Positions 10,961-19,900 of a DNA stretch of 20,987 bases are shown here, one piece after another. Below the pieces are notes generated by a model. The model ran no database searches and was not told the DNA's origin. It saw only the letters and a list, made by a program, of their open reading frames with translations. This stretch comes from a virus: positions 1-20,987 of IMG/VR virus record IMGVR_UViG_3300025120_000701. The stretch is one strand, 5' to 3'. The translations under genes and the position numbers were made by a program. Every line of letters begins with the position of its first letter. Position 1 is the first letter of the stretch.

Positions 10961-11233
10961 TTAAAAATTATATGTTGAAGAAGGATTAATGTTAGGTCCT
11001 ACAGGTCCACTTGAGGGTGAACTTGAATTACCTCTTTTAGCTTCTTCTTGTTTTTTATTTTGCTCTTTATTATATTCATTAATTTTTTGAATATGATATC
11101 TTCTCATCCAAATAGGCATGTTGTATATCTCTGAGTGTATAAATCCACCACCGCCATGGTACACTAGATCATGTATTTGAGTAAAGACTTGGTTTCTATA
11201 TGTCAGTGTCAGGCCAAAAAAAGTTAAGACCAA
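10961..11233 (-). CDS. Second-frame extension of the tail-assembly chaperone (likely made by frameshifting)
   Basis: A 90-codon frame overlapping the last 38 bases of the 248-aa chaperone gene. The recognisable core, FTQIHDLVYHGGGGF then NMPIWMRRYHIQKINEYNKE, resembles small proteins encoded next to the gp26-type gene in marine T4-like phages. That core begins well before the first ATG (codon 39). The only upstream start candidate is a TTG, and an in-frame TAA lies just before it (about 11243). This argues that the frame is read by a ribosome shifting out of the chaperone gene at the T7 run at 11222-11216, giving a protein of about 326 aa. It corresponds by position to the GT extension of other tailed phages. 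The C-terminal 30 residues are polar and Ser/Pro-rich. A terminator follows two bases later. Independent TTG initiation is the alternative. Confidence 0.7.
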   Translation of the reverse strand: MVLTFFGLTLTYRNQVFTQIHDLVYHGGGGFIHSEIYNMPIWMRRYHIQKINEYNKEQNKKQEEAKRGNSSSPSSGPVGPNINPSSTYNF

Positions 11234-11942
11234 TAGGTATTGTTATTTTAACGAAGTCCCCATTTTTATCTTCGTATTCATGAGTTAAATCAATGTCTGG
11301 TTGTACTTCAGCTATATAATTTCTTAATTCTCTAGCATCTCTAGCAAGTAATTCATTGTCAACAAATTCTCTAATTGTTTTTGTTTCAGAATCACCTCCT
11401 ATAGAAGTAATCATATATTTCATTCTAGTAGACACATTTGAAGATGAATTTTTATTTAATCTTTTTAAACCTTTCATTTCGTTAGCTATAGCTTTTTCAT
11501 CTCCATGAGTTAAAAGTTTAAATGTAACTTCTTTTTTTGCTGTAGGTAATGTAAAGAAAAATTTATTTTCATTGTTTATTATTAAAGATTCATTAAGTGA
11601 CTTATCTTCTACTTTTGTTAAATCTGCTTGGTGGGTTTCTCCCTTATGTTCAAATTCATAGTCTTTACCGTAACCTAAAATACGAGCTGCTATTAATACA
11701 GCATTTTTATCTCCTAACAATAAATCATCATAATTAATTGGGGTTATAATAAGAGATTGTAATAATTTATCAATTACTGTTCCATTTTCAATTAAATTTT
11801 GATTAGTTAATATATCTTCTTCTCGAGCTGTCATGTATTTCATTGTAATGGCTCCTTTAGATAATGGGGATTCTTTTGGGTATAATAAACCCTTTGATGG
11901 TAATGTAACTTCCTCTGTGGGAAATTGATGTTGTTGTTCCAT
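11196..11942 (-). CDS. Tail-assembly chaperone of the T4 gp26/base-plate family
   Basis: A 248-aa soluble protein with the family pattern EVTLPSKGLLYPKESPLSKG, then KYMTAREEDILTNQNLI, ENGTVIDKLLQSLI and LLGDKNAVLIAARILGYGKD. This matches the T4 gp26-like base-plate family (Pfam T4_baseplate, from memory). The C-terminal part contains DNELLARDARELRNYIAEVQ and ends IPIGLNFFWPDTDI. It lies between tail tube and tape measure genes, where tailed phages encode tape-measure-binding assembly chaperones. The gene has its own transcription unit: a terminator and a palindromic element lie upstream, and a terminator follows the overlapping frame. The last codons contain TTT TTT TGG, part of a T7 run that allows a shift into the next frame. 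The start is an ATG after AATAAATAAATAACGTT. Confidence 0.78.
   Translation of the reverse strand: MEQQHQFPTEEVTLPSKGLLYPKESPLSKGAITMKYMTAREEDILTNQNLIENGTVIDKLLQSLIITPINYDDLLLGDKNAVLIAARILGYGKDYEFEHKGETHQADLTKVEDKSLNESLIINNENKFFFTLPTAKKEVTFKLLTHGDEKAIANEMKGLKRLNKNSSSNVSTRMKYMITSIGGDSETKTIREFVDNELLARDARELRNYIAEVQPDIDLTHEYEDKNGDFVKITIPIGLNFFWPDTDI
11216..11222 (-). other. Putative programmed ribosomal frameshift site (T7 run)
   Basis: The minus strand reads AAC TTT TTT TGG in the chaperone frame, seven consecutive T's, six codons before the TAG. A Phe-tRNA on the second TTT can re-pair with TTT after moving +1 or -2, after which GGC CTG ACA continues into the 90-codon frame. A -1 move gives TTG GCC TGA and stops at once. 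The window between the in-frame TAA of the second frame (near 11243) and the TAG of the first (11196) contains this single slippery run. I did not find an obvious stimulatory hairpin by eye. Confidence 0.55.
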
Positions 11943-12572: not shown

Positions 12573-15200
12573 TTATGAATCAAATGTTGCTCCAGTTGGT
12601 AGTACATTGAAATCTAAGATTATAAATTCAGCTGTTTTAGTTGGTTGTAAAAATATTTGGCCAACTAATTGATTTCTATCAATTTCAGCTGCTGTGTTAT
12701 TATTTTCATCCATTTGTACTCTAAAGGCAAATAATCCTTGTCTTTGTTGTACTGACTCTAAATATGGATTTACTATATTTAAGAATCTATTTCTAGTAGC
12801 TTGTGTATTTTGTTCAAATACTAAGAATTTAGAAGAACTTCCAATAAATTTCTTAAGAGCAATTAATAATCTACGAACATTAATTCTATCTAATGCTGAA
12901 GCTTTTTCTTGAAGTGTTTTTTGTCCCCAAATACAAACTCCAGTTGCTGGGAATGTTGCAATTGGGTTAATTTTAGCATCGTATAATGTGTCTCTTTCAG
13001 CTTGATTTAATCTTGTTTTAGCTTCTAATACATTTCCTAATACACCTCTATTTAAACCTGCTGGTGCAAACCATTCTGCAGCAATTGCGTCTGAAGCTGC
13101 TATAGCTCCTGGTACTATTACTGATGGTGGTACTAATACTGGTTTATTTATTGAAGTGTCTAACACTTTAACCCATGGGTAATAAACTGCTGCGTAGTTA
13201 GTGTCTAAACCACTTACTTCGTTTACTGCTGAATTTACTGAAGTATTATATTGAGCTAAATCCATTACATAAAATGCATCTCCTCTTTCTTCTACCATAT
13301 CAATTGCAGCATTTGTTACTGCTGAGTGTCTTTGTTTAAGTACACCTGGTAATGCTAACATGTTAATATCGTATTCATCTTGATTTGAAAGTATAGTTAG
13401 TGCTTTTTTATAAGCTGTTGTTCCAACTCCAGTTGATGTACTTAAATCAAAGCCATATAGATTAGTTCCTGCTGTATAAGCGGATGCTAGTGTACTTTCA
13501 TTTCCTATAAATTTAACTCTATGAGTTGGTATACCATCTGTTCCACCCTGGAATGGTACTGAGAATTTAAGTTGGTTAGCTGTTGGTCCATTTACTCCTG
13601 TTGGGTCTAATGAAGCACTTAAACTGCCTGCAAATGCACTTGAATTTGCGTGGCCATTAAAGTTTTCAACATTAAATGCTCCTGCTACGTTATTTTCTAT
13701 TGTATTTGGTAATGGTTTTACAAAGTTTTTATTATCGTATGATTTATCTTCAAATTTCCATCCTAAATATCCTCTTGAATTAAAGTCTGTACCTGTAGAT
13801 GCTGTTTTTTGTACTCCTTCGTAAGATGCTGAAGGAAATACTACTGTATAAGCACTTGCATTATTATTTATTATACCACTACCACTAAATACTGTTGTAG
13901 CTATAGGATTAGTTAATACAGCAAATCCTTTAGGTGATAATTTAGGTGATGTAGCTTTAGCATCTACTGCTGTGTCTACTTCTACTCTAACATATTCTGA
14001 AATATTAGGATAATTTCCAAGTAATTCTACTTTTCCTAATGTTTCATTATATTGTGGGAATCTATCTCCTATTACTCTTGAAATATAATTTGGAGAATCT
14101 GGATCTAAATTACAATTATTGTATTGTTCTAATATTAATGGAGTTTTATCTGTATCATTATATCTTCTTAAAATTACAGAGAAAATAGAATATTGTGGAA
14201 CACCATCTATATCTGCTGGTTCTCTTAAATTAGCAATAGAAATTTTAAATTTAGTATTCATTTCTCTACCATGAGATATTGTATGAATTTTAAATAAATT
14301 TTTACTACCTAATGCTTTACCTGATTGGATAAATGGTGTTGAAGCGTATGAATATTTTTCAGTTGTACCTGTTAACCCACTATATGTTAAAGTAGTTCCT
14401 TGGGTTACTAATTGAATAACTACCCCATCAAATAATGAACTTGATGGAGATGTTAAAGTTGTTGATATACCATGATTAGTAAATTGTGTTCCTGCTGTAT
14501 CTGCTAATAATGTAGTTATTTTATCTTTAAATTCTAATTCAGCATATCCTGGTATACCATTATATGCATCAACTGCTGTTTTACTATTATCTGGTGTATC
14601 ACCTAATAATTTAACCCAATATTTATTACTTGTTGGGGTAAGTGAAGCATCAAAAGTAGTAGAAAAAGACGTTGCTGAACCTGATAATTTTATTTGTAAT
14701 GTACCTGCTATTGATGCAGATGTAATGTAAGATGAACCAGTAATAGTACCTAAACTACCAGAACTACCCATATTTAATGGATCAGATGCATTAGTTAAAA
14801 CTGAATCTTTTAGATCTGGTAAAGCGTCTGTGTCTTTAGATGGAAAAATTGCACCTAAAAATAATCCTTTACTTGAACCTGAAGGGAAAGCAGCTAATGC
14901 TACTACTTCATTAGTACTTGTTGTGTAAGTAGCTCCTCCACCACCTAATACTCTAGTTACAGTAACTGATCCTGCACTTCTTAAGTATTCTCTAACTGTT
15001 TGTGGAACGAATGTTTCAGAGCTTAAAGTTCCAAATTTTCTTTCGTATTCTGCGAAACTTTTTACTACTGTTGGTACAAAAGCTGGTCCTTCTACTGTAG
15101 GTCCAACAATTGCAGCGCCTATTGCGCCAATTCCTGCTGGTAAAAATGAAAGGTCGTTTTCTCTTGTAAAAACACCTGGTGAAATAATTTGTTCTGCCAT
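12573..15200 (-). CDS. 18: Contractile tail sheath protein
   Basis: An 875-aa protein with sheath hallmarks: an N-terminus ISPGVFTRENDLSFLPAGIG and FVPTVVKSFAEYERKFG; a middle segment FSVILRRYNDTDKTPLILEQ followed by NLDPDSPNYISRVIGDRFPQ; the core LDTSINKPVLVPPSVIVPGA and AEWFAPAGLNRG; and a C-terminal domain FRVQMDENNNTAAEIDRNQL followed by AEFIILDFNVLPTGA. Gp18-like sheaths surround the tube and contract on infection. It is about 215 residues longer than T4 gp18 (659 aa). Much of the excess is probably the Ser/Thr/Gly-rich region at about 95-330, likely surface-exposed domains. The tube gene follows. The start has an A-rich leader and no Shine-Dalgarno sequence. Confidence 0.93.
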   Translation of the reverse strand: MAEQIISPGVFTRENDLSFLPAGIGAIGAAIVGPTVEGPAFVPTVVKSFAEYERKFGTLSSETFVPQTVREYLRSAGSVTVTRVLGGGGATYTTSTNEVVALAAFPSGSSKGLFLGAIFPSKDTDALPDLKDSVLTNASDPLNMGSSGSLGTITGSSYITSASIAGTLQIKLSGSATSFSTTFDASLTPTSNKYWVKLLGDTPDNSKTAVDAYNGIPGYAELEFKDKITTLLADTAGTQFTNHGISTTLTSPSSSLFDGVVIQLVTQGTTLTYSGLTGTTEKYSYASTPFIQSGKALGSKNLFKIHTISHGREMNTKFKISIANLREPADIDGVPQYSIFSVILRRYNDTDKTPLILEQYNNCNLDPDSPNYISRVIGDRFPQYNETLGKVELLGNYPNISEYVRVEVDTAVDAKATSPKLSPKGFAVLTNPIATTVFSGSGIINNNASAYTVVFPSASYEGVQKTASTGTDFNSRGYLGWKFEDKSYDNKNFVKPLPNTIENNVAGAFNVENFNGHANSSAFAGSLSASLDPTGVNGPTANQLKFSVPFQGGTDGIPTHRVKFIGNESTLASAYTAGTNLYGFDLSTSTGVGTTAYKKALTILSNQDEYDINMLALPGVLKQRHSAVTNAAIDMVEERGDAFYVMDLAQYNTSVNSAVNEVSGLDTNYAAVYYPWVKVLDTSINKPVLVPPSVIVPGAIAASDAIAAEWFAPAGLNRGVLGNVLEAKTRLNQAERDTLYDAKINPIATFPATGVCIWGQKTLQEKASALDRINVRRLLIALKKFIGSSSKFLVFEQNTQATRNRFLNIVNPYLESVQQRQGLFAFRVQMDENNNTAAEIDRNQLVGQIFLQPTKTAEFIILDFNVLPTGATFDS

Positions 15201-15692: not shown

Positions 15693-16385
15693 TTAATCTA
15701 CTGTATTTATTTTTTCTATGTTTGCTGTTGCTACTGTATTTACTTTAGCTATATTAGCTGCTGCTACTCCTAATACTTTATGTGTATATCCTGAGGCTGC
15801 TGCTGTAAATGTTAATTGAATTGTACCACTAAAATTAATACCATTAGTAACGTCTCCATCTTCTTCAAGACCAGTATCATTATAATCAAGTGATGTAATT
15901 AAAGCTACTTTGGTAACACTTTGGGCGTTAGCAAATGATGCAAATGCAGCATTTAAAGTTATATTATTATTTCCACTTACACCTGTTGACCAAGCGTCTC
16001 CCGTAGCTGAATTAGAATATAAATTTGCTGCCCCAAAACCTAAATTATTAAAATCATTACCTTCAAGTGCATTATCTTCTCCATTAAATGCAGTTGATTT
16101 CATAACAAAAACATTGTCAGTATCTAATCCACTTGCGGTGTATGTTGGTACGTTTAATACAAAATTTGAAGCTCCACTAATACCAGAAGTGTCAAATCGA
16201 AAAAATGCTCTTATGTATCTAAAAGTTCCACTTCCTCTACCTGAAGATTGAAAATATTGCATTGCGCTTTGATCTCCTGAAGGAGCATTTGTTGCTATAC
16301 CTGTAGTTGCATCTCTTGCTGCTGGTTGATTAGCTCCTGTATTACCTGTTATAAAACCTACATGTGACGCTGCTTGAGTTGCCAT
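15693..16385 (-). CDS. Beta-rich virion protein with DNRLRE-like segment and KVN-repeat tail
   Basis: A 230-aa protein rich in Ala, Gly, Asn, Ser and Thr. The segment FRYIRAFFRFDTSGISGASN (55-74), followed by alternating strands, resembles DNRLRE/carbohydrate-binding-type beta-sandwich domains found in surface proteins. The last 28 residues form a degenerate repeat, VLGVAAANIAK / VNTVATANIEK / INTVD, like the short C-terminal KVNGV repeats I know from other phage structural proteins. The gene follows the methyltransferase with no gap (TAG then ATG), and the methyltransferase overlaps the fibre, so all three are probably translated together. A role as a fibre-associated or particle-surface protein is inferred. 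Carbohydrate binding is possible but not shown. Confidence 0.65.
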   Translation of the reverse strand: MATQAASHVGFITGNTGANQPAARDATTGIATNAPSGDQSAMQYFQSSGRGSGTFRYIRAFFRFDTSGISGASNFVLNVPTYTASGLDTDNVFVMKSTAFNGEDNALEGNDFNNLGFGAANLYSNSATGDAWSTGVSGNNNITLNAAFASFANAQSVTKVALITSLDYNDTGLEEDGDVTNGINFSGTIQLTFTAAASGYTHKVLGVAAANIAKVNTVATANIEKINTVD

Positions 16386-16952
16386 CTAAAACTGTTTTTT
16401 TGGTAAATAATAAGTTGTACTATTAAAATAACTGTTTGTTGGTGGATCAATAATTACAGCTTGATAAGTTACATTAGGTATACTGTAAAAATTAGTTTCA
16501 TCAGTATTATTATTCCACCAAGTTACTTTAGTGTTTGATTTTGTTAAAGCACTTAAAGATGAACTAAAATTTTTCATGTTTTGATCACCAAAAGTATCAT
16601 AAAATATACCATCGTATGTTAATAGTGAATCTTTGACATCATACCAACTACCTGTTATAATAGTTACATTAGATTTATTTGAAGCCCATGCTTGAGCTTT
16701 AGATACTATGTTGGGATGGTTTTCTATTATGGTGTGTGTTGAAATTGAATGAGAATGCATATAACCTGCTGATATTCCCATTCCAAATCCTATTTCTAAA
16801 ATATCTCCTCCGTTTTCACACACGTAAGCTGCTGAAGCTGACATTAAAGGATCTTCCCAATCCATCATAACTTCAAAGTCTCCTCCAAAAGATGTGTCTG
16901 TGTAGTATATCTTATCTGATTTGAATGTTAATGTTTTGTTTGTGTAACTCAT
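16386..16952 (-). CDS. SAM-dependent methyltransferase resembling guanidinoacetate/arginine N-methyltransferases
   Basis: A 188-aa class I methyltransferase. Its motifs match guanidinoacetate N-methyltransferase (GAMT) and the related Rmt2 group one by one. VMMDWEDPLM (28-37) matches VMERWETPYM; ILEIGFGMGIS (51-61) matches VLEVGFGMAIA, the SAM-binding loop; HTIIENHPNI (73-82) matches HWIIECNDGV, with the ribose-binding acidic residue at Glu77; GSWYDV (101-106) matches GLWEDV; DGIFYDTF (114-121) matches DGILYDTY. The C-terminal DPPTNSYFNSTTYYLP aligns with VPPADCRYYAFP. Glu33 and Asp119 correspond to the GAMT residues that hold the guanidino group, so a guanidino substrate (arginine side chain or small molecule) is plausible. 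It is shorter than GAMT (236 aa), mainly in the middle. The ATG overlaps the fibre stop (TAATG), and the next gene begins directly after its TAG. Confidence 0.82.
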   Translation of the reverse strand: MSYTNKTLTFKSDKIYYTDTSFGGDFEVMMDWEDPLMSASAAYVCENGGDILEIGFGMGISAGYMHSHSISTHTIIENHPNIVSKAQAWASNKSNVTIITGSWYDVKDSLLTYDGIFYDTFGDQNMKNFSSSLSALTKSNTKVTWWNNNTDETNFYSIPNVTYQAVIIDPPTNSYFNSTTYYLPKKQF

Positions 16953-19900
16953 TATGCTGTAACTTCTACAAACGTACCAGATGGATTAAACCAAATTTGA
17001 CCAGAACTAGCGTTTAAACAATAACCAATAACCCTTACTATATCACCACTACCTGCTGGAGCACCACTTGTAGCAGCTCCATAAGCACTACTTACTTGTT
17101 GTTCATCTAAAAATAAAACATCACCAACAGCACCTGGATCATGATCTAATGTTACCATACCTCTAAGTAACATACCATGAGTATTTGAAGTAGTTCCTAA
17201 AGCAACAGCTAACAAGCCATCACTAGTAGCTGCAGAATTTGGATTTGCTAATTCCCAAGTTCCACTTGAATTATAATGATATATTCTACCTTTAGTCATA
17301 CTAGTTGCACTACCAAAAAATACTACATCACCACCATTATAATCACCATCATTACCCGTACTAATGGCCATTTTTCTTGTATTGATAGTAGTTACTGTAG
17401 TACCAGCAGCTGTAAAAGCAACATTTATGTTTACTGTACCATCATCAGCAAATTCAATAGCATTATTTGTAGTAGTAGAACCTATTGTACCATCATCGGC
17501 AACAGCTATATTACCTGTTGTAGTTACTAGTGGTGTATTTAAATTTACTGCTACATCAGCAGTTAAATTAACATTATTATCACCATCTATTGTTATATTG
17601 TGATCTGTACCTGTAATAAATTGGTCAGTAGTTGATTCATTATCAAAAATTATTTTATTTCCTTCAGGTATAAAGACATTATTAAAATAACCATCTCCAC
17701 TTGCGCTTATATTACCTGAGGCTGTTATGTTAGTTACACTTACATCACCTGCGACAAAAGTCCCACCTGAAAACGTAAGTGTATCAGTTGAATGTGTTAA
17801 TAGAATGTCAGACTGATTAAAATTAATAACTGCACCTGTTCTTAAAAATAGATCAGACCATAAATGATTTGTATCACCTAATGCAGCTCCATCAGTAGTT
17901 GTGGGTCTAAATACATTTTCAGCGAATTCATATTCTGCAACGTTATTAACTTTAACTGTAACTTGATTATCTGTGCTAAAATCTATAAGATTATCTGTAT
18001 CTCTACCAAACTTTTGGCCAAATATATTTCCACTTGAACTTATATTACCTGAGGCTGTTATATGTGTTGAAATAGGAAAATTAAATTTAATTTCACCTCC
18101 TAATTGGATTTCTGCGTTAGCTCCTACTCTAGTAAAATTACTTGAATCATAACCAAATACAGTAACTACAGTACCATTAGTTAGTCGTTGTTTAATAAAT
18201 TTATTATTTTGTAAAAATATATCACCACTTGCACTTATATCACCTATCACATGTAATTCTGAATCAGGTGTAGCAGTTCCTATACCAACGTTACCACCAT
18301 CTAAAATGGTAAATACTTCTGTACCACCATCATGAATATTTACTAAATCTCCAGTTCCATCACCTCTTACATCTAAAACGGTACCAGTTGAAGAACCATG
18401 ATCACTTCTTATTGATACTACAGAATTAGTAGAAGTCCCTGTATGATTAGCGTTAGTATAAAAATATGCTGTAGCTTTATCTGTTAAATCTGAACTATCT
18501 ATTTGGAATTTTCTTGTAGGTGCAGTAACATTTATACCAACGTTACCGTTTGCAAGTATTCTCATTTTTTCTGCTGATGTACCTGAATTATCAGTAAAGA
18601 AAGAAATATAACCATTAGTATTTCCACTAGTTGTTCCACCTTGAATCATGGCGGCAGAACCAACATTATTTGCAAAGTTAACAGTACCTATTACATCTGT
18701 GCTATTATTATTATCATGAGTTAGTCTCATTACTGCACCACCTGCATTAGACCCATCACTTTTTAATTCTAATAAGTCGTTAGGACTAGTAGTTCCTATA
18801 CCTACATTAGGCCCTGCAATTCGCATTTTTTCTGATACTGTACCATTAGAATCACCTGCGGTATTAGTATGAAAAGCTAAATATGTTTCTGTTGTAGTAC
18901 TAGGATCAGTATATTTGCTTCTTAGAAATGCTGTTTCAAATGCATTAGTAAATCCTAATTCAGATACAGAGGTAGTACTAACACCTCCTTTTATAGTAAT
19001 ATCGTCAGATTTTATTGTTCCACTTGCACTTATATTACCTGTTACTTGTAGAGCTTCTGTTGGTGCAACTGTTCCTATACCAACGTTACCGTCGTGATCT
19101 ATTCTTATAGCTTCATCTAATGTTTCATCATTTTGAGTAACAAAAAATCCTAAACCAGTACTTGAATCAGCGTCACTTGCAATTTCTCTAATAGCAGCAA
19201 TACTTGCTCCAACTAAACTATCCCCAGGTGTTGTTGATGCATTACCTGCTATTCTAAATTTAATACCAACACCTTCTCCACCTAATTGGTTAATTGAGTT
19301 TCCATCATCTTTTGAGGATATGACATGCGGATAATCTATAGTGGATTGTGCTGATAATTGCGTACTAATTTCTAGTTCTGAAAATGAACCTGATAAGCCT
19401 ATTATATCTCCACTTGCACTTATATTACCTGTTACTTGTAGAGCTTCTGTTGGTGTAGTTGTTCCTATACCTACTTTTCCGTTTTCACCAATACGCATTA
19501 ATTCAGTACCATCATCACCAGTACCATTTGCTCTAAATCTATAACTAGAAGTTCCACTACTAGCGTCTGAGTCAATTTGAAAAATCATTGAATCACCAGA
19601 TATTAACCTACCTCCAGTTACACCTGTTTCACCTATTTTTATAGTACTATGAACTTCAAGTGTTTGACTAGGACTAGCTGTTCCTATACCAACATTACCA
19701 TTTGAACCAGTGATAAAAATATCGTTAGAAGTACCATCTCTTCCAACTCTAATTGATCTTGTTGATGTATTTGAACCAAAAGTAGAAACACCACTCGAAT
19801 CAATCATTTGTGCAGTTGCAGCTTGTACTCTACCAGTAGCATTTATATTACCAGATACATCTAATTTTTGAGAAGGTGTAGTTGTTCCTATACCAACATT

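Follow-up and report, generated by a model that had tools for sequence, protein, structure and literature searches.

The locus analysed here raises the question of what a methyltransferase gene related to guanidinoacetate methyltransferase (GAMT) does between a phage tail fibre gene and a gene for a putative carbohydrate-binding protein, and on which guanidino group its product would act. The window, by which we mean the whole stretch of DNA that was analysed, is a virus record of 20,987 bases (IMGVR_UViG_3300025120_000701, positions 1 to 20,987). Its minus strand carries a tail block with tail sheath, tail tube, baseplate hub and tail fibre genes, the hub and the fibre having PHROG matches (Table 1), and the presence of a tail sheath implies a contractile-tailed phage. 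The sheath is long (875 aa), and Microcystis phage Mel-JY01 is the only phage record spanning at least 80% of it, at 48% identity. Adjoining the tail genes is a gene for a 427-aa protein whose residues 194-412 match DNA polymerase family A (PF00476; E 4.1e-6, 26.4 bits, under the cut-off of 34.3). Scans of the window for tRNAs and, at gathering score, for Rfam families found none.

The methyltransferase open reading frame is real and lies on the minus strand; plus-strand frame 1 over the same interval is riddled with stops. Its start overlaps the fibre stop in the sequence TAATG, and the next gene, a member of a family that we call D220, begins directly at the methyltransferase stop with zero gap. 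Both junctions had been described in an initial interpretation of the letters (the sequence-only reading), and both are present in the window.

Table 1. Features of the window, with two decayed enzyme copies from other loci.
Feature	Coordinates	Strand	Evidence or remark
Protein matching DNA polymerase family A in part	888-2171	-
Baseplate-hub match	11196-11942	-	Minus-strand tail block; PHROG 150, 3.9e-10
Tail sheath gene	12573-15200	-
D220, 230 aa, predicted carbohydrate-binding-module fold	15693..16385	-	Family 3' of the enzyme; Z 14.4 to 8wab, 12.3 to 7vbo
D220 Arg50 codon, GRGSG turn, candidate methylation site only	16236..16238	-	Between strands 38-47 and 54-65
GAMT-fold methyltransferase gene, 188 aa	16386..16952	-	GAMT-only sequence matches; model pLDDT 95.9; Z 23.3 to 3orh_D
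Asp119 codon (GAT)	16596..16598	-	Aligned to human GAMT residue 135; 84/84 distinct viral copies
Glu33 codon (GAA)	16854..16856	-	Aligned to human GAMT residue 46; 84/84 distinct viral copies
Tail fibre gene, 1178 aa	16952..20488	-	PHROG tail fiber protein families, best PHROG 18345, 5.6e-22
Fibre C-terminal domain, end ...GDIVRVIGY...IWFNPSGTFVEV	16955..17302	-	Common to many uncultured phages
Decayed enzyme copies	L055:4964-5563, L056:3196-3795		Between baseplate-hub-like gene and long tape-measure-type gene

The window enzyme is very probably a member of the GAMT family

We compared the window protein with 177,635 distinct PDB sequences using phmmer, and the four matches at E<=1 were all GAMT, the best at 4e-14. 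A profile built from 29 relatives likewise found GAMT at 8.7e-19, with the next non-GAMT match at 0.0055. Sequence homology to GAMT thus exceeds that to all other solved methyltransferases, with GAMT entries alone at E below 0.005. An AlphaFold2 model from a 56-sequence alignment (pTM 0.92) gave the same picture. Specifically, Foldseek and VIA-align both rank GAMT first (Z 23.3 and 23.1), the best non-GAMT structure reaching Z 15.3, and 182 of the 188 residues are matched to GAMT at rmsd 2.2, the C-terminal strand included, so that model residues 1-188 superpose on residues 18-235 of the GAMT chain. The sequence-only reading had likened the protein to GAMT along its whole length, down to the C-terminal strand, and this likeness stands. 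The profile search, which might have placed the protein in an unrelated methyltransferase family, returned GAMT, as did the comparison of the predicted structure.

The reading had also set the protein apart from the usual phage DNA methyltransferases, which is borne out by Pfam. General methyltransferase models match the window protein, all below their cut-offs, with no DNA-methylase model at E<=1, and none occurs among the five families matched at 0.01 by the 29 relatives. Of those families, Methyltransf_25 matches 24 of the 29 relatives (best 1.8e-6) and the rRNA methylase model RrnaAD matches 15 (best 2.6e-5). Three other labels were considered and set aside. PHROG 4950 'tail fiber protein' (E 0.0027) was matched at 0.01 by one relative in 29 and is treated as chance; NCBIfam ksgA (0.0037) is far under its cut-off; and the PADLOC defence model mad2, matched by 23/29 relatives (best 1.1e-7), covers just residues 47-119 of the window protein, around the SAM motif. 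The gene is under purifying selection, with a median dN/dS of 0.143 over 175 non-independent pairs at 80-99% identity. Overall, sequence and model make us confident that the enzyme belongs to the GAMT family and to the guanidino type of chemistry, catalysis being presumed from both.

Next to solved GAMT (3orh, 1xcj, 1khh), the phage enzyme shares the whole-length predicted fold, a motif I (EIGFGMG), a W-E at positions 32-33, a D at 119, a TWWN corresponding to the TYCN of GAMT, and the C-terminal strand. It differs in length, the human chain having 48 residues more, and in being encoded inside an adhesin block.

Viral copies keep the GAMT-type Glu/Asp pair

The phmmer alignment sets Glu33 against residue 46 and Asp119 against residue 135 of the human GAMT chain (3orh), which we take to be the acids that grip the guanidino group. 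The same role had been assigned to the two residues from the sequence, and both are conserved. E33, D119, W32, E77 and W103 are present in all 84 distinct viral copies counted, and motif I is kept across the same 84, one of them with A for G59. Cellular homologues switch at these positions. Among 53 of them, many being close kin and 51 being readable at both positions, 18 have E/D, 28 have Q/H, five have L/H and two are incomplete, with no mixed pair. This indicates that positions 33 and 119 behave as a unit and that the viral clade keeps the GAMT-type pair. Two viral copies (L055 and L056, outside the count of 84) belong to a decayed lineage in which the reading frame is open, the GMG of motif I is missing, and Q and N stand at positions 33 and 119. 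Thus, the fold can outlast the active site.

Bacterial homologues fused to NRPS modules have the homologous domain behind Condensation and/or AMP-binding domains. Four of them (L115, L127, L131 and L140) carry Q/H and one (L145) carries E/D, which hints at different substrates. A further point of comparison is Rmt2, a fungal protein arginine delta-N-methyltransferase with an N-terminal repeat extension and a GAMT-like catalytic domain that acts on protein arginine. Going by this description, the 188-aa phage enzyme differs from Rmt2 in lacking the repeat extension, as it has 31 residues before Trp32 of the WE motif. Four Rhodospirillaceae proteins (L108, L109, L111 and L112) do carry extra N-terminal sequence in front of a GAMT-like domain whose pair is E/D, and TPR repeats were confirmed in this N-terminal part of L108 and L109. 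These four are perhaps bacterial Rmt2-like enzymes, and the layout of L108 and L109 looks nearer to Rmt2 than that of the phage enzyme does.

The family is widespread among uncultured viruses

At least 561 relatives of the enzyme were found in IMG/VR among at least 599 pattern matches. In a tree, 17 viral rows together with L107 form one clade (support 98/99) that is separate from the 19 cellular rows. L107 comes from a contig filed under a Flavobacteriales MAG and looks viral by its order of fibre, enzyme and D220. The sampled viral clade also takes in LR745206, an uncultured megaphage record of 634,780 bases, where the enzyme gene lies 3' of a 762-aa gene that is fibre-like by eye and has no PHROG match at 0.001. 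This is the one record with the enzyme among 50,697 phage records and it is uncultured; thus no cultured host is known.

Members of the family have been seen before. The phage protein A0A8D9CBY1 from an uncultured marine phage, already named 'Putative guanidinoacetate methyltransferase', is 43% identical to the window enzyme with a TM of 0.89 and so very probably belongs to the same family. An ocean survey (PMC11360552) reports viral GAMT (K00542), found in nine Arctic virus populations, as its most virus-enriched auxiliary metabolic gene (AMG) at 85.4-fold, and proposes creatine production as its role. The GAMT of these nine populations may belong to the same family.

The enzyme recurs as an optional cassette between fibre and D220

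We surveyed gene neighbourhoods in a sample centred on the enzyme, comprising the best-scoring 106 loci (104 IMG/VR contigs, L107 and L061), with near-identical contigs counted separately. The linkage to the fibre seen in the window recurs in relatives, the shared fibre C-terminal domain being upstream in 81 of the 98 loci that have an upstream ORF. The D220 family follows the enzyme at 97 of the 105 loci with a downstream ORF, and the enzyme lies between fibre and D220 at 80/106. At nine loci D220 is present with some other gene upstream. A TAATG or TGATG overlap occurs at 61 of the 101 loci with sequence before the match. The enzyme is probably translated in step with fibre and D220. Eight of these best-scoring loci have no adjoining D220: in L049-L052, L055 and L056 the enzyme is flanked by a gene like the window hub and by a long gene whose position suggests the tape-measure type, in L058 it sits between collagen-like repeat genes (judged by eye), and L061 is the eighth.

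A second sample was centred on the fibre, with its C-terminal domain alone as query, the enzyme never being used, and gave 78 loci. The enzyme is the next gene at 18 of the 73 loci having at least 400 nt downstream. D220 lies within 3 kb after the fibre at 18/18 loci with the enzyme versus 27/55 without it (Fisher 4e-5, ignoring kinship), and at two of those 27 it is about 2 kb off. When presence of the enzyme is mapped on the best tree, a quick one, of 115 D220 proteins, it changes eight times, at least five of these on starred branches. No copy of the enzyme was found elsewhere in the 14 records (8-64 kb, possible fragments) that carry D220 without an adjoining enzyme, while the same alignment detected the enzyme in 22/22 carrier records, with a single copy in each. 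Together, the 18/73 fibre loci and the eight changes indicate that the enzyme gene is a cassette that may or may not be present between fibre and D220. After enzyme-less fibre ends several other gene families stand directly next; L164 and L199, for instance, have a gene of 119 aa there, and another case is L165. Insertion at this site thus looks general.

The flanking proteins and candidate arginine sites

Within the last 150 aa of the window fibre, residues 35-148 match, at E 1e-9, a gene annotated as tail fibre in four Flavobacterium phage records; the fibre has no Pfam match at E<=1. The D220 model (pLDDT 88.8) finds as its best match the chondroitin-sulfate-binding module 8wab (Foldseek E 1.9e-4, 160 residues at the Z score in Table 1), and it also matches the alginate-binding module 7vbo. 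At the level of sequence, D220 has no Pfam match in any of 40 members, none in the PDB and none in 50,697 phage records. From its modelled fold, we best read D220 as a virion adhesin that binds carbohydrate, and we deduce from the gene block that it is present in the virion.

Two arginines were considered as substrates. The C-terminal Arg of the fibre is invariant with the enzyme (18/18) and without it (54/54), and was rejected as a substrate signature for being equally invariant in both. Arg50 of D220 is placed by the model in the turn joining strands 38-47 and 54-65, in a GRG/GRGG setting that presumably resembles eukaryotic RGG methylation motifs. A first count had this residue tracking the enzyme (86/86 with versus 4/11 without). 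After the alignment was improved and the sample centred on D220, it is Arg in 90/91 proteins with the enzyme and 23/24 without, indicating that the first difference was largely an alignment artefact. The neighbouring residues differ more, as Arg-Gly or Arg-Ser-Gly stands at position 50 in 89/91 proteins with the enzyme versus 10/24 without. However, 12 of the 14 enzyme-less exceptions form one clade, and a tree test of the Arg-Gly association was not significant (five pairs, of which one or two go the same way, none the opposite way and three or four show no difference). Arg50 could equally be a sugar-binding residue. Where D220 exists, its Arg-Gly turn is the strongest single candidate for the methylated site. 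D220 was not found in any of the eight carrier records without an adjoining D220, the whole 634,780 bases of LR745206 included, while four of four positives were found. D220 is thus a candidate and not the sole possible substrate, and the megaphage and the group on the baseplate-hub side must have a target other than D220.

Discussion

The position of the enzyme between a fibre gene and a sugar-binding-like gene suggests methylation of arginine in the virion. In the mechanism that we favour, the GAMT-fold enzyme would be a SAM-dependent guanidino-N-methyltransferase whose translation is coupled to that of the tail fibre and of the carbohydrate-binding-module-like D220. It would methylate an arginine side chain on a newly made adhesin, fibre or D220, before or during tail assembly, and the resulting methyl-arginine may alter charge or hydrogen bonding at the receptor-binding surface. 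Catalytic activity is expected from the kept active-site residues, and the gene block points to arginine of a protein as the guanidino group acted on, to an adhesin as that protein and, by extension, to an effect on receptor binding. We put methylation of an arginine of a virion adhesin by this enzyme at just under an even chance. Slightly more tentative still is the fuller account, in which a phage protein arginine methyltransferase of GAMT and not PRMT descent modifies the phage's own fibre and carbohydrate-binding-module-like adhesin, is carried as a mobile cassette in uncultured myophages and also in a megaphage, and tunes host recognition covalently in the virion. The sequence-only reading had proposed virion-arginine methylation as its simplest hypothesis. 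The type of enzyme, the Glu/Asp pair and the recurring fibre linkage favour the proposal; the arginine substrate fares less well, since the fibre Arg is the same without the enzyme and D220 was not found in eight carrier records.

Methylated Arg and Lys have been measured on virion proteins of Cellulophaga phages, a putative tail fibre among them (PMC13288928, 2026), and by the authors' own account these phages have no gene for a known methyltransferase, which indicates that host enzymes can methylate virions. Among the literature matches listed, none described a dedicated phage enzyme for virion arginine methylation and none reported a fibre or adhesin context for viral GAMT. The initial remark that no such phage tail system is known therefore holds in part: viral GAMT is already in print as an AMG (PMC11360552), and A0A8D9CBY1 is already named, while the fibre and adhesin context is absent among the matches listed.

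The enzyme might instead act on a small molecule, as an AMG that serves the infected cell by making creatine from guanidinoacetate or by methylating a different free guanidino compound. GAMT structures are its closest solved relatives, and the alignment with GAMT also takes in the stretch that precedes VMMDWE (model 1-188 on chain 18-235). A partner amidinotransferase would be sought with PF02274, a family labelled ADI that we assume also covers glycine amidinotransferase. It matches none of the 22 carrier records, mostly short possible fragments, and 3 of 14 controls, which is weak alone, and the partner could come from the host. A search for the kinase family PF00217 matched nowhere, controls included. 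What weighs more than the lack of PF02274 is that the gene sits in a virion block with adhesins; the enzyme is also shorter than the human GAMT chain (188 versus 236 aa). The creatine proposal and the strong virus enrichment of GAMT (PMC11360552) speak for this role, whereas the context described here points to virion proteins and argues, though not decisively, against creatine. We regard action on a small molecule as unlikely.

We hold it equally unlikely that the enzyme is a protein arginine methyltransferase whose target is a ribosomal, surface or defence protein of the host, and whose place in the late adhesin block reflects timing alone. The chemistry would be the same, the cassette is optional with its eight presence changes on the D220 tree (at least five on starred branches), and the share of methylated peptides is reported to be about twofold higher in infected cells (PMC13288928). 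Against this, a host-directed enzyme would not need the position between fibre and D220 that is kept at 80 of the 106 best-scoring loci, and a late structural position would fit virion targets better. Finally, the protein may serve in assembly or as a minor component of the virion, with its methyltransferase fold kept and its catalysis dispensable, as the open frames of L055 and L056 without GMG and with Q and N at 33 and 119 would allow. The retention of motif I and of the Glu/Asp pair in the 84 distinct copies, from which those two stand apart, makes this improbable.

If this enzyme does methylate virion arginine, phages would be devoting an enzyme of their own to the chemical modification of their adhesins, and host recognition would have a further layer that is missed by sequence-based prediction of host range. 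This reading also offers a testable alternative to the creatine proposal for viral GAMT, the most virus-enriched AMG of that ocean survey (PMC11360552).
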